From Limnomonas spitsbergensis (taxonomy: Eukaryota; Chlorophyta; Chlorophyceae; Chlamydomonadales), in NCBI GenBank assembly GCA_037349105.1, contig JAYJMM010000123.1:7254001-7318000 (forward strand): a stretch of 64,000 bases of DNA, in the 5' to 3' direction. A model generated the notes under the pieces. That model was not told where the DNA came from and ran no database searches. It worked only from the letters and a program-made list of their open reading frames with translations. The first letter of the stretch is position 1. Each line of letters starts with the position of its first letter. The translations under genes were made by a program, and so were the position numbers. This document shows, in pieces, positions 1-64,000 of this stretch.

Positions 1-240
1 CTGCTCACCACTTCCCCGCCATCATGTACGTGTGCCCCAGCCCGGGACCCCATCCCCCTCACCACTACCCGTCCTGCTCACCACTGCCCCGCCATCATGT
101 ACATGTGCTCCAGCCCGGGACCCCATCCCCCTCACCACTACCCGTCCTGCTCACCACTACCCCGCCATCATGTACGTGTGCTCCAGCCCGGGACCCCATC
201 CCCCTCACCACTACCCGTCCCGCTCACCACTGCCCCGCCA
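1..240. repeat. ~73-bp tandem repeat, donor copies of WD40 exon 7
   Basis: About three units of 73 bp. Read on the minus strand each unit holds ATGATGGCGGGGCAGTGGTG, the exon 7 end and donor, followed by degenerate intron sequence. Frames open through it are not genes. Confidence 0.85.
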
Positions 241-666
241 TCATTAAGATCCACCAGCTGCACCTCCTCGGTGTCCCCTACCACCGCAGCCACGGAGTCT
301 CCGCCTATCCACCTCTCTCCCAAGTCCACTATGTTTGTCCCTTTACCCCCCTCCGCCCGTCCCTCTCACCACTGCCCCGCCATCATTGAGATCCACCAGC
401 TGCGCCTCCTCGGTGTCCCCCACCACCGCAGCCACGGAGTCTCCGCCCATCCACCTCTCTCCCAAGTCCACTATGTTTGTCCCTTTACCCCCCTCCGCCG
501 GTCCCTCTCACTACTGCCCCGCCATCATTAAGGTCCACCAGCTGCGCCTCCTCGGTGTCCCCCACCACCGCAGCCACGGAGTCTCCGCCCATCCACCTCT
601 CTCCCAAGTCCACTATGTTTGTCCCTTTACCCCCCTCCGCCCGTCCCTCTCACCACTGCCCCGCCA
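241..666. repeat. 142-bp tandem repeat (three copies) of the 3' part and donor of WD40 exon 7
   Basis: Units at 241-382, 383-524 and 525-666. Each contains, on the minus strand, codons for GDSVAAVVGDTEEAQLVDLN... and the GTGAGA donor. They are pseudo-exon copies in the intron downstream of the real exon. Confidence 0.9.
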
Positions 667-801
667 TCATTGAGATCCACCAGCTGCGCCTCCTCGGTGT
701 CCCCCACCACAGCGGCCAGGGAGTCTCCGCCCGGTCGCGTCACGGCGTAATTGACGGCCCAGGGGAACTCCACCTGGGTGGCCACCTGGAACGTCTCAGC
801 A
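654..801 (-). CDS. WD40 gene exon 7 (last one in window)
   Basis: One base plus 49 codons: SAETFQVATQVEFPWAVNY at the start, GDTEEAQLVDLNDGGAV at the end, then a GTGAGA donor. The last 25 codons with the donor are repeated three more times to the left with a 142-bp period, so the true donor could be one of several. The rightmost copy is contiguous with the exon and is used here. Confidence 0.82.
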
Positions 802-3800
802 CTAGGAGGTTGGGGGGGGAGGCGGAGTGAGGGGTCAAGTATGAAGGTGTGGGTGGGGGGGAGGGGGGGGGAGGGGTCAAGTATGAAGGTGTGGGTGGGG
901 AGGGGGAGGGAGAGGGGTCAAGTATGAAGGTGAGGGTGGGTGGGGGAGGTGAAGGGTCGAGTATGAAGGTGTGGGTGGGTGGGGCAGGGGAGTGAGGGGT
1001 CAAGTATGAAGGTGTGGGTGGGGTGGGGCAGGAAAGTGAGGGGGCAAGTATGAAGGTGTGTGTGGGGGAGGGAGGGAGAGGGGTCAAGTATGAAGGTGTG
1101 GGTGGGTGGGGGGGAGTGAGGGGTCGAGTATGAAGGTGTGTGGGGGGTTGGGGAGGGGAGTGAGGGGGCGAGGAATGGCTAGAGACGGGCGATTGGTGGC
1201 TGTAGTAACAGGTAGAGAACAGGGTACGATGAGATCTCAGGTATTAAATGAGGGATGCAAGTTCACACTACCCAAATCTTTGTGTGTTTCGAGATATGGC
1301 TCAGTGCCGCCCACCTCAGGCCATGGTAGCACGATACGTCCTGTGCCATATCGTGCAGTAGATAGCAGGATACAAAGATACGACACAACATGACACGATA
1401 CGGCACGATATGGCGCGATACGGCGCAATACTGCACGATACGGCCTGCGCCATATCATGCAGTAGGTCGAAGGATACAAAGATATGACACGATAGGGTTT
1501 ATAGGGTTAAGGGTGTAGGGACCTTTTACACCTAAAACCACAAACCGGGATCCAGTAAGATGGACACTGCTGCCTTGCAGGATGCAACTGGTCAAATGGG
1601 GTTAAGGGTTTAGGGTTTGTAAACCAGAATCCAGTAGGAATGGCGCTGCTGCCTTACAGGATGCAACCGGTCGATTAGGGTTTGGGACTTAAGGGTTGAT
1701 CAACCTCAACCATAACCCAGTAGGAAGGGCGCTACTGCCTTGCAGGATGCAACCGGTCAAATAGGGATTAGGACTTATGAGTTGATCAACCTCAACCATA
1801 ACCCAGTAGGAAGGGCACTTCTGCTGGCAGCTGGCTAACCAGTCCAGCAGGGTTCAAGATTTAGGGTTTAGAAGCCTAAACCCTCATCCATTATGCTGGC
1901 AGGACCCTACTGGTCCAATAGGCTTCAGGGTTCAGGGATTAGGGCATAGCAACCTAATAAACCCAAAACCATAAACCTTATGGGAACCCTGATGCTGACT
2001 GGACCCTACCGGTCCAATAGGAGCTCGAGTGGTGCAGGTGGTTGTTATGGGAACATCTCGAACAGGCGCAGACGCGGCCTAGGCCCACGCCGCACTGTTT
2101 CCTCAACCCTCACGCCCCTGCGGGCCGTAGTTTTGTTTCTTTCTTTCTATAGGGTAACATTATGGGAACATGCCCCAAGCGGCGCAGGCAACACATCCTC
2201 TGAGGCTCCGGCGCTTGAAAATGATCGTCGAGGCCCGTGGAGCCTGACACCATCATGCATATTGGCCTCCAAAGCATCATTTGCAGGACAACAGTGCTGG
2301 AGGCGCGAGGGGTGGCACAATGTAGCAGCGTACATCCGTACAACAAGTCCAAGGCTACACGCATCAATCGATCAAGGGTTAAGGGTTGAGGGGTTAGGGG
2401 GTCTAAACCTGCAACCCTAAACTAAGGCATCACACATCAATGATTCATGGGCTTAAGGTTTATAAACCCTCAACCCTAAACTAAGGCACGACGCGTCACT
2501 AATCCATGGCTTGGTGTTTTAGGGTTCAGGGGTCTTAACCCTAAGCTCTGAAATTATAACTAAGGCATCACACGTCATTGATTCATGGGCTTAAAATTTA
2601 GGGTTCCGAGGTCGTAACCCTATACCCTATTCTAAGGCATCAAGCATAAATAGTTTACGCTGCAGCCCACTGGTACAGCTGGCAGGTGGTTTACGAGCAC
2701 TGGCCCGGCGGGCGTCCCGCATACTCACGAGAACAGCCGCAGTACGCAGTCATTGTTGGAAGCTAGCAGGCAGGTGCCATGGCCGCGCACCGTGTCGCAT
2801 ATTTCGATCCCGTTTGTGATGCCATTGTCACTGCGGCAAAGGAGAGTTATCAAAGGGCGGGTTACGGAGCAGGCAGGTGCCGTCATGTGCTGACTGATTG
2901 CCTTCCAACAAGGGGCTCGGGGCAGAAAGATATCACAAATTAAGTACCTTTATACAGTGTGCGTTAGATATTTCGACCCAGTTTAAAATGCCGATGTCAC
3001 TGCAAGAGAGCGTACAAACGGCGGGTTACGGAGCAGGCAGGTGCCATCATGTGCTGACTGAGTGCTTTCCAAGAAGGGGCTCGAGGCAGAAAGATATTAC
3101 AAATTAAGTACCTTTAAACAGTGTGCGTTAGATATTTCGATCCAGTTTAAAATGCCAATGTCACTGCAAGAGAGCGAGCAAACGGCGGGTAACAGAGCAG
3201 ACAGGTGCCATCATGTGCTGTCAGAGTGCCTTCCAACAAGGGACTTGGTACTCAAAGCCAACAAGGGGCTTGGTACTCAAAAGCCAACAAGGGGCTTGGT
3301 ACTCAAAAGCCAACAAGGGGCTTGGTACTCAAAGCCAACAAGGGACTTGGTACTTAAAGCCAACAAGGGGCTTGGTACTCAAAGCCAACAAGGGGCTTGG
3401 TACTCAAAGCCAACAAGGGGCTTGGTACTCAAAGCCAACAAGGGGCTTGGTACTCAAAGCCAACAAGGGACTTGGTACTTAAAGCCAACAAGGGACTTGG
3501 TACTTAAAGCCAACAAGGGGCTTGGTACTCAAAGCCAACAAGGGGCTTGGTACTCAAAGCCAACAAGGGGCTTGGTACTCAAAGCCAACAAGGGGCTTGG
3601 TACTCAAAGCCAACAAGGGACTTGGTACTCAAAGCCAACAAGGGGCTTGGCACTCAAAGCCAACAAAGGGCTTGGTACTCAAAGCCAACAAAGGGCTTGG
3701 TACTCAAAAGCCAACAAGGGGCTTGGTACTCAAAGCCAACAAAGGGCTTGGTACTCAAAGCCAACAAAGGGCTTGGTACTCAAAGCCAACAAAGGACTTG

Positions 3801-6800: not shown

Positions 6801-9800
6801 CTAGGCTAGGCTAGGTCAGGCTAGGCCAGGCTAGGCTAGGCTAGGCTAGGCTAGGTCAAGCTAGGCTAGGTCAGGCTAGGTCAAGCTAGGCCAGGCCTGG
6901 CCAGGCTAGGCCAAACCAGGCCAGGCTAGGTCAAGCCACGCCAGGTCAGGTCAGGCTAGGTCAAGCTAGGCCAGGCCTGGCCAGGCTAGGCTAAACCAGG
7001 CCAGGCTAGGCCAGGCCGGGCCAGGCTAGGTCAAGCTAGGCCAGGCCTGGCCAGGCTAGGCTAAACCAGGCCAAGCTAGGCCAGGCCAGGCCAGGCTAGG
7101 CCAGGCTAGGCCAGGCTAGGTCAAGCTAGGCCAGGCCAGCCGGTCTCCTCCCACCTGCGCGTCACACGACCCGAGAAAGCCGCTGACATGTCGTTCATGC
7201 GGACGCACACAAGCTCCCCGTGAAACCCCCCGACCGCCAGCAAGCCCGCCTTGACACACATGGTGCTGACCTGAGAGGGCAGGGTGGAAGGAGGGAAACC
7301 CAGTGCTTCATTTTTTACGGTTACAAGTTCAATTTCGGCAGGCCGCCCAGCGGCAGCCAAAGGCCTGCTTCGGACCAAACCTGGACTGGCCTGCAACTGG
7401 TGGTTACCAAAGCCGCAATGCTGGCCAGGAATGAGGCCTCCGGCCAAGGGCCAGAGTGCAGCTGACATGTAGCTGAGCCACGAAAAAAAAGAACACTGGA
7501 GGGAGCAATCCCGCGATTGTTGTCATTGACGCACATAGTGCACCATGTGCACCATGCGCACCATGTGCACCATGCACACCATGGTTGATGATTTTCTTTA
7601 GAAGGTCCAGGCCATTCGACGCTTTGGGGGGAAGGCCAAGGAGTTTAAAGTTTTGAACGTTCAGGGTTGAGTGTAAGGGTTTGGGCTGCGGGTGGTGACC
7701 ATGCGCACATAGTGTTGAACTGAGGGGCAAGGCATAAAGAGGGAGCAATCCTGCAATCAGCGTCACAGACGCACATGGTGCACCATGCGCATGCCGAGCT
7801 CAGAGGCAAGGGAGGGGGAGGGAGGAACCCCGCCTTTATCGCTTTTGATGCACATGGTGTTGAGCTCAGAGGCAAGTGAGGGGGAGGGAGCAACCCCGCC
7901 TTTATCGTTATTGATGCACCTGGTGTTGAGCTCAGAGGCAAGTGAGGGGGAGGGAACAACCCCGCCTTTTATCATTTTTGTTGCACATGGTGTTGAGCTC
8001 AGAGGAATGGGAAGGGGAGGGAGCAACCCCGCCTTTATCGTTTTTGATGCACATGGTGTAGAGCTCAGAGGCAAGTGAGGGGGAGGGAGCAACCCCGCCT
8101 TTTTCATTTTGAATCACCTGGTGTTGAGCTCAGAGGCAAGTGAGGGGGAGGAACAACCCCGCCTTTATCGTTTTTGAATCACCTGGTGTTGAGCTCAGAG
8201 GCAAGGGAGGGGGAGGGAGCAACCCCGCCTTTATCGTTATTGATGCACATGGTGTTGAGCTCAGAGGCATGGGAGGGGGAGGGAACAACCCCGCCTTTAT
8301 CGTTTTTGATGCACATGGTGTTGAGCTCAGAGGCATGGGAGGGGGAGGGAGCAACCCCGCCTTTATCGTTTTTGATGCACATGGTGTTGAGCTCAGAGGC
8401 AAGGGAGGGGGAGGGCGCAACCCCGCCTTTATCGTTATTGATGCACATGGTGTTGAGCTCAGAGGCATGGGAGGGGGAGGGAGCAACCCCGCCTTTATCG
8501 TTTTTGATGCACATGGTGTTGAGCTCAGAGGCAAGGGAGGGGGAGGGAGCAACCCCGCCTTTATCGTTTTTGATGCACATGGTGTTGAGCTCAGAGGCAA
8601 GTGAGGGGGAGGGAGCAACCCCGCCTTTTTCATTTTTGATGCACCTGGTGTTGAGCTCAGAGGCAAGTGAGGGGGAGGGAGCAACCCCGCCTTTACCGTT
8701 TTTGATGCACATGGTGTTGAGCTCAGAGGCAAGGGAGGGGGAGGGAGCAACCCCGCCTTTATCGTTTTTGATGCACCTGGTGTTGAGCTCAGAGGCAAGT
8801 GAGGGGGAGGAACAACCCCGCCTTTATCGTTTTTGAATCACCTGGTGTTGAGCTCAGAGGCATGGGAGGGGGAGGGAGCAACCCCGCCTTTATCGTTATT
8901 GATGCACATGGTGTTGAGCTCAGAGGCATGGGAGGGGGAGGGAACAACCCCGCCTTTATCGTTTTTGATGCACATGGTGTTGAGCTCAGAGGCATGGGAG
9001 GGGGAGGGAGCAACCCCGCCTTTATCGTTTTTGATGCACATGGTGTTGAGCTCAGAGGCAAGGGAGGGGGAGGGCGCAACCCCGCCTTTATCGTTATTGA
9101 TGCACATGGTGTTGAGCTCAGAGGCATGGGAGGGGGAGGGAGCAACCCCGCCTTTATCGTTTTTGATGCACATGGTGTTGAGCTCAGAGGCAAGTGAGGG
9201 GGAGGGAGCAACCCCGCCTTAATCGTTTTTGATGCACATGGTGTTGAGCTCAGAGGCAAGTGAGGGGGAGGGAGCTACCCCGCCTTTTTCATTTTTGATG
9301 CACCTGGTGTTGAGCTCAGAGGCAAGTGAGGGGGAGGGAGCAACCCCGCCTTTACCGTTTTTGATGCACATGGTGTTGAGCTCAGAGGCAAGGGAGGGGG
9401 AGGGAGCAACCCCGCCTTTATCGTTTTTGATGCACCTGGTGTTGAGCTCAGAGGCAAGTGAGGGGGAGGAACAACCCCGCCTTTATCGTTTTTGAATCAC
9501 CTGGTGTTGAGCTCAGAGGCATGGGAGGGGGAGGGAGCAACCCCGCCTTTATCGTTATTGATGCACATGGTGTTGAGCTCAGAGGCATGGGAGGGGGATG
9601 GAACAACCCCGCCTTTATCGTTTTTGATGCACATGGTGTTGAGCTCAGAGGCATGGGAGGGGGAGGGAGCAACCCCGCCTTTATCGTTTTTGATGCACAT
9701 GGTGTTGAGCTCAGAGGCAAGGGAGGGGGAGGGCGCAACCCCGCCTTTATCGTTATTGATGCACATGGTGTTGAGCTCAGAGGCATGGGAGGGGGAGGGA

Positions 9801-12800
9801 GCAACCCCGCCTTTATCGTTTTTGATGCACATGGTGTTGAGCTCAGAGGCATGGGAGGGGGAGGGAGCAACCCCGCCTTTATCGTTTTTGATGCACATGG
9901 TGTTGAGCTCAGAGGCAAGGGAGGGGGAGGGCGCAACCCCGCCTTTATCGTTATTGATGCACATGGTGTTGAGCTCAGAGGCATGGGAGGGGGAGGGAGC
10001 AACCCCGCCTTTATCGTTTTTGATGCACATGGTGTTGAGCTCAGAGGCAAGTGAGGGGGAGGGAGCAACCCCGCCTTAATCGTTTTTGATGCACATGGTG
10101 TTGAGCTCAGAGGCAAGTGAGGGGGAGGGAGCAACCCCGCCTTTTTCATTTTTGATGCACCTGGTGTTGAGCTCAGAGGCAAGTGAGGGGGAGGGAGCAA
10201 CCCCGCCTTTACCGTTTTTGATGCACATGGTGTTGAGCTCAGAGGCAAGGGAGGGGGAGGGAGCAACCCCGCCTTTATCGTTTTTGATGCACCTGGTGTT
10301 GAGCTCAGAGGCAAGTGAGGGGGAGGAACAACCCCGCCTTTATCGTTTTTGAATCACCTGGTGTTGAGCTCAGAGGCATGGGAGGGGGAGGGAGCAACCC
10401 CGCCTTTATCGTTATTGATGCACATGGTGTTGAGCTCAGAGGCATGGGAGGGGGATGGAACAACCCCGCCTTTATCGTTTTTGATGCACATGGTGTTGAG
10501 CTCAGAGGCATGGGAGGGGGAGGGAGCAACCCCGCCTTTATCGTTTTTGATGCACATGGTGTTGAGCTCAGAGGCAAGGGAGGGGGAGGGCGCAACCCCG
10601 CCTTTATCGTTATTGATGCACATGGTGTTGAGCTCAGAGGCATGGGAGGGGGAGGGAGCAACCCCGCCTTTATCGTTTTTGATGCACATGGTGTTGAGCT
10701 CAGAGGCAAGTGAGGGGGAGGGAGCAACCCCGCCTTAATCGTTTTTGATGCACATGGTGTTGAGCTCAGAGGCAAGTGAGGGGGAGGGAGCAACCCCGCC
10801 TTTTTCATTTTTGATGCACCTGGTGTTGAGCTCAGAGGCAAGTGAGGGGGAGGGAGCAACCCCGCCTTTACCGTTTTTGATGCACATGGTGTTGAGCTCA
10901 GAGGCAAGGGAGGGGGAGGGAGCAACCCCGCCTTTATCGTTTTTGATGCACCTGGTGTTGAGCTCAGAGGCAAGTGAGGGGGAGGGAGCAACCCCGCTTT
11001 TTTCATTTTTGATGCACCTGGTGTTGAGCTCAGAGGCAAGTGAGGGGGAGGGAGCAACCCCGCCTTTTTCATTTTTGATGCACATGGTGTTGAGCTCAGA
11101 GGCAAGGGAGGGGGAGGGAGCAACCCCGCCTTTATCATTATTGATGCACCTGGTGTTGAGCTCAGAGGCAAGGGAGGGGGAGGGCGCAACCCCGCCTTAC
11201 TCATTATTGATGCACCTGGTGTTGAGCTCAGAGGCAAGTGAGGGGGAGGGAGCAACCCCGCCTTTTTCATTTTTGATGCACCTGGTGTTGAGCTCAGAGG
11301 CAAGTGAGGGGGAGGGAGCAACCCCGCCTTTATCGTTTTTGATGCACCTGGTGTTGAGCTCAGAGGCAAGGGAGGGGGAGGGCGCAACCCCGCCTTTATC
11401 ATTATTGATGCACATGGTGTTGAGCTCAGAGGCAAGTGAGGGGGAGGGAGCAACCCCGCCTTTATCATTATTGATGCACATGGTGTTGAGCAAAGCTGGT
11501 TGCAAAAAATCATCACAGACAACTAGACAAGAGTGCCCCAAGGCTTTTGTGGCTTCGGCCCAGGCTGCGCTGTTTCCTTAACTCTCACGCCCCTCACGGG
11601 GCGTAGCCCTCTTTCCTTTTGCCCCTCGCCCCCCATTCAGGTGGCAGCCCTGAATACCCCAAACCCTACTCCCCCCCCCCCAAACCCTACTCCCCCCCCC
11701 CCAAACCCTACTCCCCCCCCCCAAACCCTACTCCCCCCCCCCAAACCCTACTCCCCCCCCCCAAAAAACATATACGCCCCTCTGGCCTGAATGGAGCCCA
11801 CACCGGACGGCCTGCGGGCATGCTGCCCCCCAGACAGGTGGCAACCCTGAATAGTGAATACCCCCCCAACCCTCCCCAACAACACAAAAAGGGGGGGAAA
11901 TGCGCCCCTCTTGCCTGAATGGAGCCTACGCCGGGCAGCCTGCGGGTGTGTTGCCCCCCGGACAGGTCCAGCACTGGAGTCAGCACGCGCGTGGCGGGGT
12001 TCCAATGCTCCACGCAGTTCTCGTGCACCACAAACACGTCATTGCGCGAGGTGGCCCAGACCAGGTTACGTAACTGCACAGGGGGGAGGGGGGAGGGGGA
12101 AGTGTTAACCACTCAGGTGTGGACGGGGAATGAAGTGTGAACACATTATTGCGGAAGGTGGCCCACACGAGGTTACGTAACTGCAGGGGGGAGGGGGGAG
12201 GGGGGAGAAAGTGTGAACCACTCAGAGGTGTGAACGGGGGATATAGTGAGAACCAACCAGGAGTGTGAACACAAACACGTCATTGCGGGAGGTGGCCAAG
12301 ACCAGGTTGCGTGACTGCAGGGGGGGAGGGGGGATGGGGAATGAAGTGTGGACCGGTAAGGGGTGTGGACACAAACACGTCATTCCGGGAGGTGGCCCAG
12401 ACCAGGTTGCGTAATTGCAGGGGGGGAGTGTGAACAGCTTAGGGGTGTGGGCGCATACAAATCATTGCGGGAGGTGGCCCAGGCTAGCTTATGTAACAGC
12501 ATGAGGGAGGGAAGGCAGGGTGTGAAGCACTTGGGGTGTGGACGAAGTGTGGATGGGGTGTGGACGTGGGGTGACCCACAAACACGTCATTGCAAAAGGC
12601 GGGCCAGACCAGGCTTCACAACTGAAAAGGGAGAATGTACACTGTTCTAAACCCGACCAATAGCCGGTGGCCCAAGCAACAGGGTGTGACAAACTAGGGA
12701 CATCCCCAGTCGCAGGGCGTGTCATGATGCAGCTCAATTGTAGCTGATCTGTAGCTGAAGAACGCTTAAAGCAACACGGGTCGTTTTTGTGTGTCCCCAG

Positions 12801-15800
12801 GGGCTAAACCCACACTCGGCTTCATCGAACCCTCTGCAGGCTCACCTGGAAGTGCACGATGTTGGACTGGCCTTTCTAGGGTTGAGGGTTACGGGTTAAG
12901 GGAAAACCTTAAAACCTCAAACCTTCAACCCAAAAGCGTAACCTACACCCCCTTTGCAGACCCAGTTGGAAGTGCACGATGGTGGACTGGACTTCCTAGG
13001 GTTTAGGGTTTAGGGTTCAGGGTTAAGGGAAAACCTTAAAACCTATAAACTTTGACCCAAAACAACACCCCTCTGCAGACTCGCCTGGAAGTGCACAATG
13101 GTAGACTGGACTTTCTAGGGTTTAGGGTTTAGGGTAGACCTTTTAAACCTAAACCTTTAACCCTTAACCCAAAACCATACCCCTCAGAAGACTCACCTGG
13201 AAGTGCACGATGGTGGACTGGACTTTCCGGCTGTTCCTCGTGAAATCAAAATTCCGGCCGTTGCTGACGGGCGCCCGCGGCCGCGCCAAGGCCAGGATCT
13301 CATCGTGGAACTCCGCCAGGTCCTCAGGCAGTACATTGTTGTAGTTGGGGTACGAGCGCAGCCGCATGGCCCGGTAGTGCTCGCGGCTGAACTGCAACCG
13401 GTCCCACGGAATGCCTGTCGGGAGCAGCGTGTGCGATAAATAAACGATAAAATGATAAAATAAACGAGTAATTAGATGAATAGACGAGTCAATAGATGCG
13501 CAAACAAGTGTGTGGATGAGGAAACCACCCATTTGGGCCAAATCGTCGGACATGGCTACTCTGGGGGCGGCGGCAGCGTGCAGAGAGAGCAGGGGGGTCA
13601 TGTTATGCCTGTCGGCTGTATGGCTACTCCAGGGGGGGGCGGCAACAGCGTGCAGAGAGAGCAGATCGTTCATGTAATGCCTGCCGGCTGCATGGGACAA
13701 GATACTGGCAGTGCGATTAGGTTCCCTGGACCCTGGACCATAAACTCTGCCGGGTGCAGGGAGCAGATCGTTCATGTAATGCCTGCAGGCTGCATGGGAC
13801 AAGATACTGGTAGTGCGATTAGGTTCCCTGGACCCTGGACCATAAACTCTGCCGGGTGCAGGGAGCAGATCGTTCATGTAATGCCTGCAGGCTGCATGGG
13901 ACAAGATACTGGTAGTGCGATTAGGTTCCCTGGACCCTGGACCATAAACTCTGCCGGGTGCAGGGAGCAGATCGTTCATGTAATGCCTGCAGGCTGCATG
14001 GGACAGATACTGGTCGTGAGATTGGGTTCCCTTCACCCTAAACCCTGGACTGCAACCGGTCCCATGGCATGGAATGCCTGCTGGGTGCAGAGGGCAGATT
14101 AGGTTGCTTGACATAGCCCTAACCCCTAAATAAATAATCCCATAAAAAGCCTGCCAGATGCAGGGAGCAAATCGTTCATGGCATGTCTGCCGTGTTCAGG
14201 GGACAGGTTCTGGTAGGGAGATGGTCCCACGGAATGCCAGCTTTATGCAGGGAGCAGATAGCCCCATGGAATGCCTGACAGGTAGGGGACAGACAGCAGT
14301 AGTTCATCTAATGCTTGCTTTATGCAGGGAGCAGATAGCCCCATGGAATGCCTGACAGGTAGGGGGGACAGACAGCAGTAGTTCATCGAATGCTTGCTTT
14401 GTGCAGGGAGCAGATAGCCCCATGAAATGCCTGACAGGTAGGGGGTACAGATAGCAGTAGTTCATTGAATGCTTGCTTTGTGCAGGGAGCAGATAGCCCC
14501 ATGAAATGCCTGACAGGTAGGGGGGACAGACAGCAGTAGTTCATCGAATGCTTGCTTTGTGCAGGGAGCAGATAGCCCCATGGAATGCCTGACAGGTAGG
14601 GGGGACAGACAGCAGTAGTTCATCGAATGCTTGCTTTATGCAGGGAGCAGATAGCCCCATGGAATGCTTGACAGGTAGGGGGGACAGACAGCAGTAGTTC
14701 ATCGAATGCTTGCTTTGTGCAGGGAGCAGATAGCCCCATGGAATGCCTGACAGGTAGGGGGGAGAGATAGCAGTAGTTCATTGAATGCTTGCTTTGTGCA
14801 GGGAGCAGATAGTCCCATGGTATGCCTGACAGGTAGGGGGGACAGACAGCAGTAGTTTATCGAATGCTTGCTTTATGCAGGGAGCAGATAGTCCCATGAA
14901 ATGCCTGGCAGGTAGGGGGGACAGACAGCAGTAGTTCATCGAATGCTTGCTTTGTGCAGGGAGCAGATAGCCCCATGGAATGCCTGACAGGTAGGGGGGA
15001 CAGACAGCAGTAGAGCATCGAATGCTTGCTTTGTGCAGGGAGCAGATAGCCCCATGAAATGCCTGACAGGTAGGGGGGACAGACAGCAGTAGTTTATCCA
15101 ATGCTTGCTTTATGCAGGGAGCAGATAGCCCCATAAAATGCCTGACAGGTAGGGGGGACAGACAGCAGTAGAGCATCGAATGCTTGCTTTATGCAGGGAG
15201 CAGATCGTCCCATGGTATGCCTGACAGGTAGGGGGGACAGACAGCAGTAGTTTATCGAATGCTTGCTTTATGCAGGGAGCAGATAGCCCCATAAAATGCC
15301 TGACAGGTAGGGGGGACAGACAGCAGTAGTTCATCGAATGCTTGCTTTGTGCAGGGAGCAGATAGCCCCATGGAATGCCTGACAGGTAGGGGGGACAGAC
15401 AGCAGTAGTTCATCGAATGCTTGCTTTATGCAGGGAGCAGATAGCCCCATGGAATGCTTGACAGGTAGGGGGGACAGACAGCAGTAGTTCATCGAATGCT
15501 TGCTTTGTGCAGGGAGCAGATAGCCCCATGGAATGCCTGACAGGTAGGGGGGAGAGATAGCAGTAGTTCATTGAATGCTTGCTTTGTGCAGGGAGCAGAT
15601 AGTCCCATGGTATGCCTGACAGGTAGGGGGGACAGACAGCAGTAGTTTATCGAATGCTTGCTTTATGCAGGGAGCAGATAGTCCCATGAAATGCCTGGCA
15701 GGTAGGGGGGACAGACAGCAGTAGTTCATCGAATGCTTGCTTTGTGCAGGGAGCAGATAGCCCCATGGAATGCCTGACAGGTAGGGGGGACAGACAGCAG

Positions 15801-18800
15801 TAGAGCATCGAATGCTTGCTTTGTGCAGGGAGCAGATAGCCCCATGAAATGCCTGACAGGTAGGGGGGACAGACAGCAGTAGTTTATCCAATGCTTGCTT
15901 TATGCAGGGAGCAGATAGCCCCATAAAATGCCTGACAGGTAGGGGGGACAGACAGCAGTAGAGCATCGAATGCTTGCTTTATGCAGGGAGCAGATCGTCC
16001 CATGGTATGCCTGACAGGTAGGGGGGACAGACAGCAGTAGTTTATCGAATGCTTGCTTTATGCAGGGAGCAGATAGCCCCATAAAATGCCTGACAGGTAG
16101 GGGGGACAGACAGCAGTAGTTCATCGAATGCTTGCTTTATGCAGGGAGCAGATCGTCCCTTTGAAATATTGAAATGCCTGCCAGCTGCATGAGACAGACA
16201 GCTGAAGGTTGTCGCAAGCCTGCCATCAGTATATATATATATACCTCCAATCCACTCCCTCTACCGTAGCTTTGCTTTGCCTGCCCTCTGGTATGAAAAC
16301 ATGATTTGTCTCAATGAGGATGCCCTCCCTAGGACAAACTTTCGATAAAGACTCTTAAATTCCAGACTGAAATATTGCGTTGACAATCGATCATTAGTAT
16401 ACCAGTATTCATGGATACCTCAAACTCAAAGCAACGTTAATTATGAGGGAAGGCAAAGCAAATCTACGGTCCTCCCTCCATAATGAATATCGCTTTTATC
16501 TCCCACCTTGTATATCTTTGCCTGCTCTCAGCTGCTCCGCTGTCGTGTCTTGGACTTCCTCGGAGGTTTCATCGTCGGTGAAATCCTCCACAAGCTGCAT
16601 GCCGTACACAGTTCGTTTCGTTGGTTAGTGTGTGGGGGAGGGCTACTAAGAATCCAATCCTCCACAAGCTACATACACACATAGTTTTGTGTGGGGGGCT
16701 TTGTGTGGGGACCTTTGTGTGGGGGGCTCTGTGTGGGGCTTTCGGTGGGGACCTTTGTGGGGGGGGCTTTGTGTGCGGGGGGGGGGGGGGGAGAGGGCAA
16801 CTATAAATAATTAAACCCTCCACATGCTGCATAAACGGTTCGGTTTGTTGGTAAGTGTGTGTGAGGAGGGGGAGGGTAACTACGACTTAAATCCTCCACG
16901 TGCTGCAAAAACAGTTCATTTTGTCAATTTGTGTGTGGGGCTTTGGGTGGGGAGCTTTGTGTGTGGGGCTTTGGGTGGGGAGGTTTGTGTGTGATGGGAG
17001 AAAGCTTTGTGTGTGGGGCAATGGGTGGGGAGCTTTGTGTGTGATGAGGGAAAGCTTTGTGTATGGGGCAATGGGTGGGGAGCTTTGTGTGTGGGGCTTT
17101 GGGTGGGGAGCTTTTAGCGTGATGGGCGGGAACTTTGTGTGTGGGGCTTTGTGTGGGGAGCTTTGTGTGTGGGGCTGTGGGTGGGGAGCTTTGTGCGTGA
17201 TGGGCGGGAGCTTTGTTTGTGGGGCTTTGGGTGGGGAGCTTTGTGTGTGGGGCTTTGGGAGTAGAGATTTTAGCGTGATGGCGGGAGCTTTGTGTGTGGG
17301 GCTTTGGGTGGGGAGCTTTGTGTGGGGGGCTTTGGGTAGGGAGCTTTTTGCGTGATGGGCGGGAGCTTTGTGTGTGGGGCTTTGGGTGGGGAGCTTTGTG
17401 CGTGATGGGCGGGAGCTTTGTGTATGGGGCTTTGGGTGGGGAGCTTTGTGTGTGGGGCTTTGGGTGAGGAGCTTTGTGTATGGCGCTTTGGGAGGGGAGC
17501 TTTTAGCGTGATGGGCGGGAGCTTTGTGTGTAGGGCTTTGGGTGGGGAGCTTTGTGTGTGGGGCTTTGGGTGGGGAGCTTTGTGCGTGATGGGCGGGAGC
17601 TTTGTGTGTGGGGCTTTGGGTGGGGAGCTTTGTGTGTGGGGCTTTGGGTGGGGAGCTTTGTGTGTGGGGCTTGGGGTGGGGAGCTTTGTGCGTGATGGGC
17701 GGGAGCTTTGTGTGTGGGGCTTTGGGTGGGGAGCTTTATGTGTGGGGCTTTGGGTGGGGAGCTTTGTGTGTGATGGGGGTGAGCTTTGTGTGTAGGGCTT
17801 TGGGTGGGGAGCTTTGTGTGTGATGGGGGAGAGCTTTGTGTGTGGGGCTTTGGGTGGGGAGCTTTGTGCGTAATGGGCGGGAGCTTTGTGTGTGGGGCTT
17901 TGGGTGGGGAGCTTTGTGCGTGATGGGCGGGAGCTTTGTGTGTGGGGCTTTGGGTGGGGAGCTTTGTGTGTGATGGGGGGGAGCTTTGTGTGTGGGGCTT
18001 TGGGTGGGGAGCTTTGTGCGTGATGGGCGGGAGCTTTGTGTGTGGGGCTTTGGGTGGGGAGCTTTGTGCGTGATGGGCGGGAGCTTTGTGTGTGGGGCTT
18101 TGGGTGGGGAGCTTTGTGCGTGATGGGCCGGAGCTTTGTGTGTGGGGCTTGGGGTGGGGAGCTTTGTGCGTGATGGGCGGGAGCTTTGTGTGTGGGGCTT
18201 TGGGTGGGGAGCTTTATGTGTGGGGCTTTGGGTGGGGAGCTTTGTGTGTGATGGGGGTGAGCTTTGTGTGTAGGGCTTTGGGTGGGGAGCTTTGTGCGTG
18301 ATGGGCGGGAGCTTTGTGTGTGGGGCTTTGGGTGGGGAGCTTTGTGCGTGATGGGCGGGAGCTTTGTGTGTGGGGCTTTGGGTGGGGAGCTTTGTGCGTG
18401 ATGGGCGGGAGCTTTGTGTGTGGGGCTTTGGGTGGGGAGCTTTGTGCGTGATGGGCGGGAGCTTTGTGTGTGGGGCTTGGGGTGGGGAGCTTTGTGCGTG
18501 ATGGGCGGGAGCTTTGTGTGTGGGGCTTTGGGTGGGGAGCTTTATGTGTGGGGCTTTGGGTGGGGAGCTTTGTGTGTGATGGGGGTGAGCTTTGTGTGTA
18601 GGGCTCTGGGTGGGGAGCTTTGTGTGTGATGGGGGAGAGCTTTGTGTGTGGGGCTTTGGGTGGGGAGCTTTGTGCGTAATGGGCGGGAGCTTTGTGTGTG
18701 GGGCTTTGGGTGGGGAGCTTTGTGCGTGATGGGCGGGAGCTTTGTGTGTGGGGCTTTGGGTGGGGAGCTTTGTGTGTGATGGGGGGGAGCTTTGTGTGTG

Positions 18801-20652
18801 GGGCTTTGGGTGGGGAGCTTTGTGTGTGGGGCTTGGGGTGGGGAGCTTTGTGCGTGATGGGCGGGAGCTTTGTGTGTGGGGCTTTGGGTGGGGAGCTTTG
18901 TGTGTGATGGGGGTGAGCTTTGTGTGTGGGGCTTTGGGTGGGGAGCTGTGTGTGTGATGGGGGGAGAGGGCTGCTTAGAATCAAATCCTCCACATGCTGC
19001 ATGAACAGTTTGTTTTGTTGGTTTGTGTGTGGGGGGGGAGGGGAGGGCAACTACGAGTTAAATCCTCCACATGCTTCATACACGGTTCGTTCTGTTAGTT
19101 TCTGTGAATGGGGGGAGGGCTTATGAGAATTAAATCCTCCACATGCTGCATACACGGTTCGTTCTGTTAGTTTCTGTGAATGGGGGGAGGGCTAATGAGA
19201 ATTAAATCCTCCCCATGCTGCATACACGTTTTCTTTGTCGTAGTTCCTGCATGCTGCGTGGGGGGGGGGCTACTTCGAACGAAATCTTACACATGCTGCA
19301 TGCAACCTTTGTCTTGTTGGTGTCTGCGCGTGCTATATGGGGAGAAGCGAATCATTCAATCCTCCCTATGCTGCATACAAGATTGCATGTATCAGACACT
19401 TTGTGCGCAGAGCTTGTCAAGCTGTGATCAGGGCAGGGAAATTATGAATTAAATCTTCAACACGCTGCATTCACGGCTTGTTCTATAAGCGTGCTCCTGT
19501 GTAATGTGTATGTGCAATGTGTTGTGTGTTATGTGTTATGTGTTATGTGTGTAGGAGGGACGATGAATTATATAGCCACTCGAGGAAAAGGTGGCATGCA
19601 CAGGGAGGGCAGATGATAATTCAAAGCTGCAAGGGGAGATCACACTTTAAGTATCCATGTCAGCCTTCTTCAGTGGGGACTACTGCCAAGCAACCTGCCC
19701 CACCATCACACACGTGCATGCCGCCCTTTGGCCCCTGTCACCTGCCCCACCACCATACACTGCCATAGTACCATGCCGCCCTGCCTTGCCCTGTCACCTA
19801 CCCCACCACCACACACTGCCATAGTACCATGCCATCCTGCCTTGCCCTGTCACCTGACCTACCATGCTGTCTCCTCCGCCACCTGACCTGCACAGCCCTA
19901 TCCTGTCCCGTCCTGTCACCTGCCCTGGCATGTCCTGCCACATGCCCTGCGTCATGTCATGGCTTGCCCTGCCACCTGCCCTGCCTCCTAACCTGCCACA
20001 TGCTCTGCCACCTGTCCTGCCCCCTTTGCCCTGTCACCTGCCCTGCCACATGCTCTGCCGCATGCCCTGCCACGTCCTACCACCTGCCCTGTCACCTGCC
20101 ACCTTCCATGCCATGCCTCCTATCCTACCCTGCCACCCGCCACGCATTCTGCCCTATCAACTGCTTGACTATCTGGCCTGCGATCTGCCCTGCTGTCTAC
20201 TCTGCTCTGCAGTCTGCCATATCACCAAGGTAGCCCTGCCACCGGCAAAACCTGCCCTGCCCAGTCCTGACACGCGCCAGGCTGGACAACAATGCAGAAC
20301 ACAGACCACGCATGCGTGCAGGCTCTTACAAAGGGTGGGCTATTATTCTGTCACACACCTCTTCATCCTCTTGGTCATCCTCCTCGGGAGGGGCTACGCC
20401 TGGTCGCCGCCCCGCCGCGCCTGCCCCAGCACCTGCAGCTGCCTCCGCCCCCCAGCGACGTTCGCCCAGCATCTCCGGCCAGTACTCGGGAACTGGCAGC
20501 TGCCAGTCGCCTTCGTCGTCATCTTCATCTTCATCGTCCATCAGGAGAGGGGGCGGCTCCTCGTCCAGCATGGCAACGTGCGGGTCATTGTCATCTCCAT
20601 GCAGCTGGGCAGCTGCTGCATGATCCTCGCCTGCTGCTGGCGCATGAGTCAT
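654..20652 (-). CDS. WD40-repeat (beta-propeller) protein, plant/algal family; 5' seven exons, continues off left edge
   Basis: Exons read right to left: 20652-20359, 16594-16507, 13414-13197, 12073-11915, 7270-7155, 2830-2729, 801-654. Phases agree at all six junctions and give about 375 residues. The N-terminus is acidic (residues 39-48 nearly all D/E). Exon 2 joins exon 3 as ...AGKDIQ-GIPWDRL, then come NFDFTRNSRKVQSTIVHFQ, LRNLVWATSRNDVFVVHEN, VSTMCVKAGLLAVGGFHGEL, SDNGITNGIEI, ASNNDCVLRLFS and VEFPWAVNYAV. From memory, this order matches a green-lineage family whose Arabidopsis members are labelled only 'Transducin/WD40 repeat-like'. The later blades are outside the window. Function is unknown; a scaffold role is inference. 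Exons make up about 1.1 kb of 20 kb, the rest being tandem arrays. Confidence is high for the exon chain, moderate for the family. Confidence 0.88.
805..1165. repeat. G-rich ~55-bp tandem repeat
   Basis: About six units around GGGGTCAAGTATGAAGGTGT with variable G runs. Lies in the intron upstream of WD40 exon 7. No exon-derived sequence was recognised in it. Confidence 0.8.
1300..1495. repeat. Short GATACGGC/CGATATGGC repeats
   Basis: Irregular repeats of ACGATACGGCACGATATGGC type in the intron between WD40 exons 6 and 7. No coding signal. Confidence 0.7.
1490..2650. repeat. Telomere-like (GGGTTTA/GGGTTAAG) degenerate intronic repeats
   Basis: Many GGGTTTAGGG-, GGGTTAAGGG- and AACCCTAAA-like stretches, mixed with ~110-bp units carrying CCAGTAGGAAGGGCGCTACT and GCAGGATGCAACCGGTC. 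Intron between WD40 exons 6 and 7. The tract at 2064-2150 is a retroelement tail. Confidence 0.75.
2729..2830 (-). CDS. WD40 gene exon 6
   Basis: One base, 33 codons, two bases. Encodes (S)DNGITNGIEICDTVRGHG and ASNNDCVLRLF. Acceptor GCCGCAG, donor GTGAGT. Too short and too split by repeats to be found as a long open frame; it was identified by phase and family pattern. Copies of its acceptor end are at about 2.86-3.22 kb. Confidence 0.85.
2860..3225. repeat. ~165-bp repeats carrying the acceptor of WD40 exon 6
   Basis: Two and a half copies. Each contains GATATTTCGACCCAGTTT and ATGTCACTGCAAGAGAGC, degraded copies of the first bases of exon 6 and its acceptor (2790-2840). Each also holds CCTTCCAACAAGGGGCTCGG, the apparent seed of the next array. 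Confidence 0.85.
3226..6187. repeat. 25/26-bp minisatellite, about 115 units
   Basis: Unit CCAACAAGGGGCTTGGTACT + CAAAG, with or without one extra A. The mix of 25 and 26 bp leaves very long meaningless frames in all three phases (up to 619 codons). Lies in the intron between WD40 exons 5 and 6. Confidence 0.95.
6188..6455. other. AT-rich intron stretch without recognised features
   Basis: Unique AT-rich sequence between two arrays, in the intron between WD40 exons 5 and 6. Nothing coding or structural was recognised. Confidence 0.5.
6456..7137. repeat. CTAGG pentanucleotide array, degenerate at the right end
   Basis: Perfect (GGCTA)n runs interrupted by GGTCAAGCTA and GGCCAGGCTA variants that become dominant towards the exon 5 donor at 7155. 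Homogeneous on the left and diverged on the right, as if growth was at the far end. Confidence 0.92.
7155..7270 (-). CDS. WD40 gene exon 5
   Basis: 38 codons plus two bases. Begins VSTMCVKAGLLAVGGFHGEL, a blade-like strand pattern, and ends SGRVTR. Acceptor CCTCTCAG, donor GTGGGA. Its acceptor end is the recognisable source of the 66-bp array at 7.8-11.5 kb. Confidence 0.87.
7318..7490. repeat. Dispersed repeat, copy A
   Basis: Shares GGCAGGCCGCCCAG, CCAAACCTGGAC, CAACTGGTGG and GTAGCTGAG..CACGAAA with 38285-38460 in the same order. Unclassified; probably a retroelement fragment. Confidence 0.65.
7770..11492. repeat. 66-bp minisatellite derived from the acceptor of WD40 exon 5, about 56 units
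   Basis: Unit on plus strand: GATGCACATGGTGTTGAGCT, CAGAGGCAAGGGAGGGGGAG, GGAGCAACCCCGCCTTTATC, GTTTTT. On the minus strand CTCTGAGCTCAACACCATGT matches the exon 5 junction CTCTCAGGTCAGCACCATGT. Because 66 is a multiple of 3, frames stay open on both strands. A 659-bp higher-order period repeats at about 8.13, 8.79 and 9.45 kb. Confidence 0.92.
11540..11635 (+). mobile_element. Retroelement 3' tail, CACGCCCC family
   Basis: GTGGCTTCGGCCCAGGCTGC, GCTGTTTCCTTAACTCTCAC, GCCCCTCACGGGGCGTAG. The same tail occurs at 2064, 24868 (reverse), 39690 and 39840 (reverse). Confidence 0.7.
11636..11850. repeat. C-rich CCAAACCCTACT repeats and donor copies of WD40 exon 4
   Basis: Six units of CCAAACCCTACT plus C runs (telomere-like CCCTA core). 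They are flanked by copies of CTGAATGGAGCC...GGCCTGCGGGC...CCCCCC, the end of exon 4 with its donor. Confidence 0.75.
11915..12073 (-). CDS. WD40 gene exon 4, probable GC-AG intron follows
   Basis: 53 codons, phase 0 at both ends. Begins LRNLVWATSRNDVFVVHEN and ends GVGSIQ. Acceptor TGTGCAG. The only in-frame junction that joins the next exon in phase is ATTCAG followed by GCAAGA, a non-canonical GC donor. Five copies of the acceptor end lie just upstream (12.12-12.63 kb). Confidence 0.8.
12115..12630. repeat. Five acceptor-end copies of WD40 exon 4
   Basis: Repeats of CACAAACACGTCATTGCGGG, AGGTGGCCCAGACCAGGTT, GCGTAACTGCAGGGGGGAG at about 12.14, 12.27, 12.37, 12.45 and 12.57 kb, upstream of the exon at 12073. 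They are degenerate copies of its first ~55 bases plus CAG. Confidence 0.9.
12825..13145. repeat. Three donor-end copies of WD40 exon 3 with telomere-like spacers
   Basis: Copies of CTCACCTGGAAGTGCACGAT, GGTGGACTGGACTTTC at 12.84, 12.96 and 13.08 kb, period ~118 bp. They are separated by GGGTTTAGGGTTTAGGG and AACCCTTAACCC tracts. The real junction is at 13191-13230. Confidence 0.9.
13197..13414 (-). CDS. WD40 gene exon 3
   Basis: Two bases plus 72 codons. Encodes (G)IPWDRLQFSREHYRAMRL at its start and STIVHFQ at its end. Acceptor CCGACAG, donor GTGAGT. Both of its junctions have been duplicated into flanking arrays: donor copies at 12.83-13.12 kb, acceptor copies at 13.67-16.17 kb. Confidence 0.9.
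13560..14160. repeat. ~115-bp repeats related to the acceptor of WD40 exon 3
   Basis: Three to four units with ATGCCTGCAGGCTGCATGGG, ACAAGATACTGGTAGTGCG and GGTTCCCTGGACCCTGGACC. The last unit contains CTGCAACCGGTCCCATGGCA, clearly the exon 3 start read in reverse. Confidence 0.85.
14161..16170. repeat. 79-bp minisatellite from the acceptor of WD40 exon 3, about 25 units
   Basis: Unit includes CCCCATGGAATGCCTGACAG, the reverse of acceptor CAG plus GCATTCC(G)TGGG of exon 3. A 790-bp (ten-unit) block is duplicated: 14778-15176 recurs at 15568-15966. Confidence 0.92.
16171..16506. other. Intron sequence without recognised features
   Basis: Unique sequence between the 79-bp array and WD40 exon 2, with a short TATATATATATA run near 16.23 kb. 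Nothing else was recognised. Confidence 0.5.
16507..16594 (-). CDS. WD40 gene exon 2
   Basis: 29 codons plus one base. Acceptor GCATGCAG, donor GTGGGA. Encodes LVEDFTDDETSEEVQDTTAE and ends ...AGKDIQ. The acceptor and the first bases of this exon recur in degraded form about ten times between 16.66 and 19.46 kb. Confidence 0.85.
16625..19460. repeat. G-rich GCTTTGTGTGTGGGG array flanked by acceptor copies of WD40 exon 2
   Basis: The core (16.9-18.96 kb) repeats GGGGCTTTGGGTGGGGAGCT, TTGTGTGTG and GATGGGCGGGA variants. On both sides AAATCCTCCACATGCTGCAT plus an AACAGTTTGTTTTGTTGG-like tail recurs about ten times. This is the exon 2 start, its CAG acceptor and adjoining intron in reverse. Confidence 0.88.
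19680..20260. repeat. Degenerate CCTGCCACCTGCCCTG repeats
   Basis: Irregular C/T-rich repeats (CACCTGCCCTG, ACACTGCCATAGTACCATGC) in intron 1 of the WD40 gene, next to the exon 1 donor. No exon copy was recognised. Confidence 0.65.
20359..20652 (-). CDS. WD40 gene exon 1 (start codon)
   Basis: 98 codons from ATG at 20652 to a GTGTGT donor, phase 0. Acidic stretch at residues 39-48, Ala/Gly-rich stretch at 70-82, then a second acidic end at 90-98. The start is chosen because the frame joins exon 2 in phase and no upstream coding exon was recognised. Confidence 0.8.
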
Positions 20653-22600: not shown

Positions 22601-22735
22601 CTTTTTTTTTCTTACACTTATTTTCCCCTTTTCCCTCGCATTTCCCTTGTTTTTTTCTGACCAACTGACCAGACAGTCGGGCGCCCATGCGGCCGAGCCT
22701 TTTGAGCATGGCCCAGAGGTTGCCCTAAAATCATT
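22600..22735 (+). mobile_element. Non-LTR retroelement 3' tail
   Basis: T/C-rich tract followed by GGCGCCCATGCGGCCGAGCC and GCATGGCCCAGAGGTTG. 5'-truncated copy of the tail seen intact at 24.1-24.25 kb; the terminal GTCATTGACC is degenerate here. Confidence 0.65.
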
Positions 22736-23129
22736 GTCCTAAAGTCATTGCCCTAAAATACGCCCTATGTCAGACGGACTTTTGTGCGTGTCATTGCGGG
22801 AAGGTGGCCCTGATACCCATATTGGTTGTCTGGCAGACATGCTGATTAGAACTGCAGGGCTTCATTGTCATCTATCCATTGAGACTGAGATTCTCAACAA
22901 ACTTTGGGGCACTAAAGCCCATTAAAAGTAGGAATTAAATTAACAGTGAGCAGCTGAGCTTTTCAAACGAACTCATCCTGGCCCTTCAAGCCTCTTCGTT
23001 AGCAAGCAATGTCCATCCATTTTAAATGCACCGACACATCAGAGGATCTCATGGGTTTGCTTCTTTCTTTCCTCTTTGTCGAGGGCTAGCATCTGGACGG
23101 GCTGGGGATTCTTCAGATCTGCATTATAT

Positions 23130-23485
23130 CGTTGGATGGTCTTTTCCTTCTCCTTCTTCCATCTGTTCCTTTCCTTTCCCCACTGGCCTTAAGTTCATTT
23201 TCCTCCCGACGAGACAGTCGGGCGCCCATGCAGCCGATCCTTTTCAGCATGGCCCAGAGGTGTAATGCCGTTGACACCGGAGTTAAGCTTGGCTCCTTGG
23301 TGTCAACGAATGTTTATGGAAAAGCGTCGGAACCAAGTTAGCAACATCCTTTGTCCTTCCTTTCTAGCCTTTGTCTGTCCCTTCACTTTTTTACCCCTTT
23401 TCCTTTTTTTTTCACCCCTTAAACTTAGGCGCCCACGCAGCCGAGCCTTTTTTACCAGGGCCCAGAGGTGTAACGTCATTGACCA
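23130..23485 (+). mobile_element. Two tandem non-LTR retroelement 3' tails
   Basis: Copies ending near 23275 (GTAATGCCGTTGACACC) and 23482 (GTAACGTCATTGACC). Each is preceded by a pyrimidine-rich UTR and GGCGCCCA(T/C)GCAGCCGA. No protein-coding part remains. Confidence 0.75.
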
Positions 23486-23674
23486 AGTACCGTAAGCACA
23501 TGTCGCGATGGCTACAGTTATTATCGTGAGTTTAGGAAGGTGTGTACCCTTTGGGCCCTACTGAACGCTGGGCCGAGTTGCGCTAGTACGGGATGAGCAA
23601 GCTCAATTCCAGCTAACAGTCACAGGTAGTAAATCAATGGTGCAGCCATACCACCCTCCAATGCTTATCATGTT

Positions 23675-24246: not shown

Positions 24247-25760
<1,514 letters not shown>

Positions 25761-37929: not shown

Positions 37930-63771
<25,842 letters not shown>

Positions 63772-63951
63772 CTGTGAGAAAACAACAGGTCCAAAAGTTG
63801 ACGCCCGGGGAATTCGAATTCGTAATGGGGAAAATTTGTATCGGGGAGGTGTGGACCGAGCAGAGGCGCATGCAAGGCCTGAATGGGAGGCCAGCACTAA
63901 ACTGCGCTCTTCCTTTGGCTCTCACAGATACACCTGCCACCCATCACAAAG

Positions 63952-63979
63952 CCTAAACCCTAATCCCTAAACCCTAAAC
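63952..63979. repeat. CCCTAAA telomere-like tract
   Basis: CCTAAACCCTAATCCCTAAA + CCCTAAA: four heptamers of the plant-type telomere sequence, one changed, in an intron of the TPR gene. Confidence 0.8.
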
Positions 63980-64000
63980 AGCCGTCACCCCCAAGAAGCC

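Follow-up and report, generated by a model that had tools for sequence, protein, structure and literature searches.

Tandem copies of exon edges and their splice sites in introns of the green alga Limnomonas spitsbergensis

Introns of the chlorophyte Limnomonas spitsbergensis often contain, in many cases as tandem arrays, partial copies of the edge of the neighbouring exon together with its splice site. The copies were noticed in a stretch of 64,000 nucleotides (contig JAYJMM010000123.1, positions 7,254,001 to 7,318,000, assembly GCA_037349105.1; hereafter the window), where a WD40, a TPR and a diiron gene were modelled. The pattern holds up and is common in the sampled genes: copies occur in 53 of 113 introns overall and in 33 of 83 outside the window (32 loci), the affected outside loci being spread over 15 of 27 sampled contigs. 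Donor copies lie downstream of the exon and acceptor copies upstream of it, and the frequency is linked to intron length, with 8 of 48 introns below 500 base pairs (bp) and 45 of 65 above 500 bp affected. It is highly probable that these introns have grown by tandem duplication of segments straddling the exon-intron border, followed by growth of the arrays, that is by the process described in chicken as exon stuttering (Hron et al., 2026), here in a green alga.

Exon-edge copies in the window and in a genome sample

Gene models in the window were built from proteins of relatives and drew on 30 kb of flanking sequence beyond it. With the joined window exons as query, the orthologue of the WD40 gene is Chlamydomonas eustigma g4206 (P0001, 70% identity) and that of the TPR gene C. 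eustigma g4203 (P0121); the diiron gene has C. eustigma g4205 (P0124) and a closer relative (P0123). Exons were placed with a custom spliced protein-to-DNA aligner (10 in the WD40, 22 in the TPR and 8 in the diiron gene), the WD40 and TPR models being based on P0001 and P0121 and then curated: hand placement was used for the first WD40 exon, for the beginning of TPR exon 1 and, in TPR exons 7 and 8, for the 3' end and the 5' end, respectively; five small exons that the aligner had put forward, two in the WD40 and three in the TPR gene, were rejected as spurious; and the WD40 intron nearest the 5' end is counted despite its uncertain donor. The edge test uses exonic bases only, comparing the first or last 60 bases of an exon with the adjacent intron less 15 bases at each end; its controls are the edges of other (foreign) exons, which give a rank p, the antisense strand and the intron on the wrong side of the exon.

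The total set comprises 113 introns with 226 exon edges, namely 30 introns of the WD40 and TPR genes, 36 Cpn60 introns and 47 kinesin introns; the 7 introns of the diiron gene stand outside it, as do genome matches to PF00171. The 83 outside-window introns come from 32 Cpn60 and kinesin loci on 27 contigs (the genome has 260,226,709 bp in 124 contigs and 54% GC). These loci were fetched through exon matches (76 for Cpn60/TCP-1, 143 for kinesin), and the positions of their intron borders were chosen from splice score, phase and profile length, with a splice-score matrix trained on 29 window introns. For Cpn60, 16 stretches were fetched, 14 were used for intron placing (L020 and L021 have a single match each) and 12 had usable introns; pairs with a profile gap above 22 residues or with no candidate were left out, and from the 41 introns placed four were removed for weak splice scores and one for a poor length match. 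For kinesin, 20 of the 33 gene clusters with at least three matches were fetched, picked for many matches in little DNA and cut tight, so that the sample is biased toward shorter introns, and 47 of the 50 introns placed were used. Some retained introns are 7–10 residues off the profile length (L022.436, L023.442, L024.422, L029.1744, L009.5881; L024.422 is counted as affected), and many Cpn60 and kinesin exons are known only as a piece within a profile match, both edges being placed for 67 exons.

Of the 60 exon edges tested in the WD40 and TPR genes, 24 resemble their own intron at rank p ≤ 0.05, and 23 of these do better than every control edge; on the wrong side, 4 of 56 edges reach this p. 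The own-intron excess is significant relative to both the antisense (p = 1e-7) and the wrong-side control (p = 1e-5). Affected are 8 of 9 WD40 and 12 of 21 TPR introns, those past the window ends included, and the copies have 70–98% identity to the exon edge, which bears out the first-pass annotation of the window, where such copies had been read in the introns of both genes. Where the copies form arrays, their shifts are multiples of the array period, for example 142/284/426 for WD40 exon 801-654, 157 × 1–6 for TPR exon 43359-43247 and 106 × 1–6 for TPR exon 45421-45311, so the exon edge is the terminal unit of the array. Several WD40 and TPR copies are detectable by tblastn with the C. eustigma protein as query; since the exon is conserved in C. 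eustigma, the copy in the intron is the derived one. For the diiron gene the same annotation was right only in part: arrays in introns 5 and 6 do include the splice site, but with just 6 and 2 exon bases instead of the 12–100 proposed, and 0 of 14 edges reach p ≤ 0.05.

Over the full set of 113 introns, an own-intron match at p ≤ 0.01 is seen for 65 of 226 edges (32 donor, 33 acceptor), compared with 2 of 226 in antisense and 5 of 134 on the wrong side; at p ≤ 0.05 the counts are 72 of 226, 18 of 226 and 6 of 134, respectively, the antisense excess at this threshold stemming mainly from the kinesin set (13 of 94). Outside the window alone, the figures at p ≤ 0.01 are 41 of 166 for the own intron, 2 of 166 for antisense and 1 of 78 for the wrong side. 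Chance is ruled out by the antisense, foreign-edge and wrong-side controls. Both the similarity beyond that of non-adjacent exons and the scarcity of wrong-side copies agree with what the annotation had proposed; its stronger wording, that the copies always lie on the proper side, gives way to a strong polarity with five exceptions. Three of these are exons of 69–114 bp whose correct-side copies extend into the tested 60 bases, and two, WD40 exon 2830-2729 (a 16-base interior piece) and L024.2932, are without explanation. An excess of donor copies, seen in the window at p ≤ 0.01 (15 donor versus 9 acceptor edges), is reversed in Cpn60 (4 versus 12) and vanishes overall (32 versus 33). By length class, 3 of 23 introns are affected below 250 bp, 5 of 25 at 250–500 bp, 23 of 30 at 500–1000 bp, 13 of 26 at 1–2 kb and 9 of 9 above 2 kb.

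Anatomy, splice sites and turnover of the copies

Border-crossing families, defined by at least 6 exon and at least 4 intron bases aligned, number 62 (31 donor, 31 acceptor). The first copy lies at a median distance of 115 bp in donor and 113 bp in acceptor families, and a crossing family has a median of 31 exon bases, with maxima of 96 and 67; some families have a single detected copy, as in chicken. The shifts are free of frame bias (shift modulo 3 = 23/20/19 over the 62 families), leaving selection on the coding frame unsupported, and a fixed exon share per unit was likewise rejected, the share ranging from 0.02 to 0.97. The best exon-derived match per edge spans at most 0.66 of the known exon piece; whole-exon copies, considered as a test of exon definition, are uninformative, as few are expected.

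The copied splice sites are largely intact. The splice dinucleotide is kept in every copy of 23 of 31 donor families (GT/GC) and 20 of 31 acceptor families (AG). Compared with other dinucleotides of the unit, its retention is higher in donors (0.84 vs 0.74, p = 0.02) and, less clearly, in acceptors (0.78 vs 0.72, p = 0.09), but relative to the same dinucleotide elsewhere in the unit the difference is not significant (0.888 vs 0.825, p = 0.20, and 0.750 vs 0.695, p = 0.46). Scores at or above the 10th percentile of real splice sites are reached by 137 of 306 copies, and by at least one copy in 24 of 31 donor and 25 of 31 acceptor families. The annotation had called the copied sites degraded; with dinucleotides surviving like their counterparts elsewhere in the unit, this description does not hold. 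Selective inactivation of acceptor decoys, an idea arising from TPR intron 10 with its 55 copies lacking AG, is not general. GC donors occur in two WD40 introns, at 11914 and after exon -2226..-2410 (L001), with the motifs gcaaga and gcaagt; GC is kept in the sole donor-edge copy of the 11914 donor and in one of two copies of the L001 donor.

Pieces of the 157-bp, 119-bp and 106-bp arrays, searched against the genome DNA, match at their own locus only (very common words skipped). Within the 119-bp array (48644-55517), matches of equal score recur every 1,664 bp, or about 14 units, a step compatible with unequal exchange of blocks of several units. Of the 14 pairs of paralogous introns, three show edge copies in just one of the two introns (L011.7565/L012.8217, L022.436/L024.422 and L022.1546/L024.3469) and two more differ in the affected edge (L025.4312/L026.3581 and L028.3234/L032.2487), which argues for fast turnover. 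Exon-edge identity between paralogues is 0.42–1.00 over the pairs, and 0.42–0.87 for L022/L024, which supply two of the three one-sided pairs and whose borders are less certain. The close Cpn60 and kinesin pairs L011/L012, L015/L016, L017/L018 and L022/L023 could serve to date the birth of arrays; L022 and L023 lie about 15 kb apart on one contig, the other close pairs on different contigs.

Origin and placement of the duplications

Local duplication across exon edges followed by array growth, the mechanism proposed in the first-pass annotation, has good support, and so does the link to intron length. A segment spanning an exon-intron border would be tandemly duplicated, and the gene would survive if splicing stays on the exon-proximal copy of the site, the other copy turning intronic; donor copies would thus pile up downstream of the exon and acceptor copies upstream, a polarity explained by the need of splicing to keep the exon-proximal site. 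Since the protein is conserved, this copy must be the one used. The arrays would afterwards grow and shrink like ordinary minisatellites, presumably through unequal exchange, and the intron would lengthen. Decoys may be ignored because no copy holds a whole exon with both of its edges, as would be expected under exon definition. Acceptor duplications may also survive better when they carry the branch point and pyrimidine tract, while a donor would need few bases, and the counts of intron bases (distance to the first copy minus exon bases) differ in this direction: at least 27 in 31 of 31 acceptor families, below 27 in 6 of 31 donor families (Fisher p = 0.012) and, by smallest copy spacing, below 27 in 2 of 31 acceptors and 8 of 31 donors (p = 0.04).

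Several points weigh against border-straddling duplication as set out here. The cut at 27 bases was picked after the data had been seen, and the neglect of the decoys is deduced from conserved proteins, not from RNA. The lack of whole-exon copies is weak evidence, because few units exceed exon length. A simulation of intron growth gives affected fractions of 0.12–0.27, 0.17–0.31, 0.53–0.78, 0.65–0.91 and 0.74–0.97 for the five length classes, and the observed values are 0.13, 0.20, 0.77, 0.50 and 1.00, so that the introns of 1–2 kb fall below their range. Finally, 64 of 90 arrays found by Tandem Repeats Finder (TRF) with units of at least 20 bp are not classed as carrying exon bases, and border crossing is therefore not the sole route of growth; the rule applied to these arrays is a strict one, and in some that it passes over, such as those of WD40 introns 1, 2 and 4, blastn does detect exon bases.

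A separate matter is whether the border is a special place for duplication, and the annotation's claim of arrays seeded by the junction itself lacks proof. Purely uniform local tandem duplication, in which units of about 100 bp arising in introns of about 200 bp often cross an edge, has close to an even chance of being right. TRF arrays are classed as carrying exon bases in 2 of 42 cases for units of 20–45 bp, 3 of 19 for 45–80 bp, 11 of 16 for 80–120 bp and 10 of 13 above 120 bp, i.e. in 21 of 29 with units of at least 80 bp. A uniform model that has the intron length at duplication as its sole free parameter is best at 210 bp (support 160–290) and predicts 2.2, 5.9, 9.1 and 10.1 crossing arrays in these bins, where 2, 3, 11 and 10 are seen; it also fits most of the intron-length classes, so that special seeding is unnecessary for the overall frequencies. 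Median intron lengths of 198–343 bp reported for core-Reinhardtinia (PMC8226300) are in line with the fitted value, but copy-free introns have a median of 358 bp, and if the residual intron lengths of today are used, 10.8 of the 48 arrays with units of at least 45 bp would be expected to cross, where 24 do. Uniform placement is also at odds with an excess of breakpoints at the edges, and it is this excess that speaks for targeted seeding, in which the exon-intron junction would be a hotspot of tandem duplication (e.g. through transcription-linked or nucleosome-boundary breaks), a possibility to which we give real but lesser weight. Exon-side breakpoints in 74 introns of at least 400 bp (148 edges) occupy 58 of 462 edge-bins at -20 to +60 and 16 of 521 at -160 to -20, a ratio of 4.1; families of at least 90% identity give 17 of 553 versus 6 of 889, and simulated uniform breakpoints yield a ratio of 0.6–1.1 only. 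Planted and aged duplications indicate a detection bias of 1.33 in favour of edge copies, after correction for which the excess is 3.1-fold (p = 1e-5), and 3.5-fold at 90% identity or more (p = 0.005). Against a hotspot, border crossing tracks unit length as uniform placement predicts, the breakpoints are scattered over 0–60 exon bases and not fixed, one-sidedness is expected from the splicing constraint, and faster loss or scrambling of interior duplications could produce the same breakpoint ratio. The broader proposal, that borders are preferred duplication sites by about threefold over the adjoining intron, through a border-specific process common to birds and green algae which is a major engine of intron growth and whose working-looking decoys are ignored by a positional rule, is offered tentatively.

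Other explanations of the copies themselves fare worse. It is quite improbable that the decoys are useful and held by selection, for example by slowing or diversifying splicing: the many intact dinucleotides, the somewhat better retention of those in donors and the high scores of many copies (see above) would suit such a role, but splice dinucleotides are not kept significantly more often than identical ones at other places of the unit, frame bias is absent, arrays differ between paralogues, and the longest acceptor array lacks AG in 55 of 55 copies tested. Introner-like mobile elements bringing their own splice sites would account for the presence of splice sites in the arrays of many introns; exon edges, however, match their own intron and not the introns of other genes, and all three arrays searched are confined to a single locus, which makes this origin barely conceivable. 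Equally hard to credit is an assembly artefact from repeated long-read segments. Tandem arrays are indeed hard to assemble and the genome was obtained from PacBio reads, yet nearly half of the sampled introns are affected, with units that differ and in introns of only 161–329 bp among others, the window copies span a broad range of identity to the exon edge, and the assembly was polished, with a read L50 of 32.946 kb (PMC11228838).

Known systems and further features of the window

The annotation had taken the duplication of boundaries of existing introns to be undescribed, but Hron et al. (2026; PMC12954441, Genome Biol Evol) reported "sequence stuttering" in introns of the chicken dot chromosomes and, as "exon stuttering", the copying of part of an exon with its splice site into the neighbouring intron. 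In chicken it concerns 236 introns spread over 115 genes; dot chromosomes contribute 190 of these introns, which is 3.4% of all dot introns, and these authors state that they did not find it in other vertebrates save GC-rich gerbil genes (data not shown). The likeness to the alga is that introns hold partial tandem copies of the edge of the adjoining exon along with its splice site, and in both organisms the copies are imperfect, measure tens to hundreds of bases and are isolated between exons. The exon part is 20–187 bp (median 36) in chicken and 20–94 bp (median 38) in the alga, with copy numbers of 1–44 and up to 55, respectively; the copied part reaches the exon border within 1 base in more than 90% of cases in chicken, and in the alga, where local alignment ends blur the figures, within 1 base in 38 of 56 and within 5 bases in 50 of 56. 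Whereas chicken exon stuttering is found mainly on dot chromosomes and is linked by its authors to GC-rich regions, the algal copies occur on more than half of the sampled contigs of a genome of 54% GC; such a setting is where exon stuttering was found in birds and not a structural trait of it. Strong variation of intron length among individuals is described for chicken, and for the alga, represented by one assembly, the three one-sided paralogue pairs out of 14 are an indirect sign. The algal rate of 53 of 113 sampled introns compares with 3.4% of chicken dot introns, in screens that used different thresholds. New with respect to chicken exon stuttering, as far as its description is available, are the algal host, the far higher rate, the statistics on polarity, the largely intact decoys and a null model for placement.

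One simple mutational process would thus be tied to intron length in nearly half of the sampled introns. The affected introns also provide a natural test of how splice sites are chosen: each has from one to dozens of decoys, many scoring like real sites, and existing Iso-Seq data could compare exon definition with first-AG scanning across many genes. Rogers (1989) is reportedly the work cited for intron gain by tandem duplication. Such a gain by tandem genomic duplication has been described for the potato RdRp gene (PMC4974935), where duplication likewise alters intron content but gives a new intron, while the algal introns grow and keep their borders. In human paralogues, variable internal tandem repeats at exon-intron boundaries alter introns (PMC2812944); these are recent segmental duplicates with new, often alternative introns, and in the text available the repeats are not put forward as a general route of intron growth. 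Tandem repeats of C. reinhardtii and Volvox carteri are commonest in introns, with a higher density close to intron-exon junctions (G3 2013, PMC3887541), a report of repeat positions whose text, in the form available, has no word starting with "splice" and no mention of exon-edge copies. Introner elements place one element in many introns genome-wide, and the three algal arrays searched are single-locus. No report of exon-edge copies in algae was found in the literature searched, outside which most subscription journals lie.

The copies in the WD40 gene are on the (-) strand. Intron 7 holds an array of six donor-edge copies of exon 801-654 at 1..590 (90–98% identity, up to 79 exon bases plus the donor), with shifts of 142/284/426 and then steps of 73 bp, the last copy overrunning the left end of the window by a few bases. 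Two acceptor-edge copies of exon 2830-2729 are found in intron 5 at 2968..3218 (80%, units of 164 bp with 32 exon bases). In intron 4, copies of the acceptor edge of exon 7270-7155 occupy 7845..11456 (20 exon bases), within a 66-bp array at 7796-11491 of whose 56 TRF units 32 are matched at 74–78%, with AG kept in 32 of 32; the same intron has, at 11772..11839, a donor-edge copy of exon 12073-11915 with 53 exon bases and a GC donor. This exon is also represented in intron 3 by five acceptor-edge copies at 12140..12631 (up to 46 exon bases), some of them seen by tblastn with the C. eustigma protein, next to three donor-edge copies of exon 13414-13197 at 12830..13115 (31 exon bases). An acceptor-edge copy of exon 13414-13197 lies in intron 2 at 14045..14090 (28 exon bases), between arrays at 13650-14039 and 14232-16153, and six acceptor-edge copies of exon 16594-16507 lie in intron 1 at 16656..19202 (73–95%, up to 17 exon bases). 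The two arrays of the diiron gene, on the (+) strand, hold too few exon bases for the exonic test: the donor array of intron 5 (28337..28511) starts 6 bases inside exon 28234-28342, and the acceptor array of intron 6 (30790..30973) ends 2 bases inside exon 30972-31125.

In the TPR gene, again on the (-) strand, single donor-edge copies are present in intron 19 at 38860..38961 (exon 39145-39015, 62 exon bases), in intron 17 at 40562..40605 (exon 41339-41223, 40 exon bases, distant, 77%) and in intron 12 at 46971..47020 (exon 47301-47232, 14 exon bases). Intron 16 has acceptor-edge copies of exon 41339-41223 at 41670..42058 (41 exon bases) and six donor-edge units of 157 bp from exon 43359-43247 at 42251..43147 (58 exon bases), the acceptor edge of the latter exon being copied in intron 15 at 43438..43639 (23 exon bases). 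Six acceptor-edge units of 106 bp from exon 45421-45311 fill 45464..46090 in intron 13 (64 exon bases). The 119-bp acceptor-edge units of exon 48470-48329 in intron 10 (48644..55517) number 57.7 by TRF, carry up to 57 exon bases and have lost the aligned AG in every copy tested. Exon 57439-57267 has six donor-edge copies in intron 9 at 56058..57233 (74–85%, up to 42 exon bases) and an acceptor-edge copy in intron 8 at 57666..57705, with 15 exon bases and an edge not significant in the exonic test. Seven donor-edge units of about 180 bp from exon 62812-62685 are found in intron 7 at 61390..62561 (57 exon bases; donor position read by hand), and intron 6 has a donor-edge copy of exon 63771-63658 at 63346..63372 (13 exon bases) and a second copy, at a shift of 136, spanning exon bases 34-109.

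The fourth window gene, at about 32.5–33.8 kb, we take to be bZIP-like from its motif, and the open frames at 24186-25657 (-) are presumably retrotransposon remnants, again from motifs. The counterparts of three window genes lie on a single 770,439-bp contig of C. eustigma (g4203 for TPR, g4205 for diiron and g4206 for WD40), and the neighbourhood is thus conserved, as two genes of UWO 241 (FOA52_003040 and FOA52_003043) likewise indicate. TRF covers 59% of the modelled window introns, 0.5% of the intergenic DNA at 20700-26780 and 34250-37760 (9.6 kb) and 0.00 of the 2-kb bin of the fourth gene. Elsewhere the contrast is weaker, at 20% of the mapped Cpn60 and kinesin introns versus 9% of the remaining fetched DNA, which includes exons and unmapped introns; a restriction of arrays to introns is thus near-true in the window and weaker elsewhere, and the window is richer in arrays than the sampled rest.

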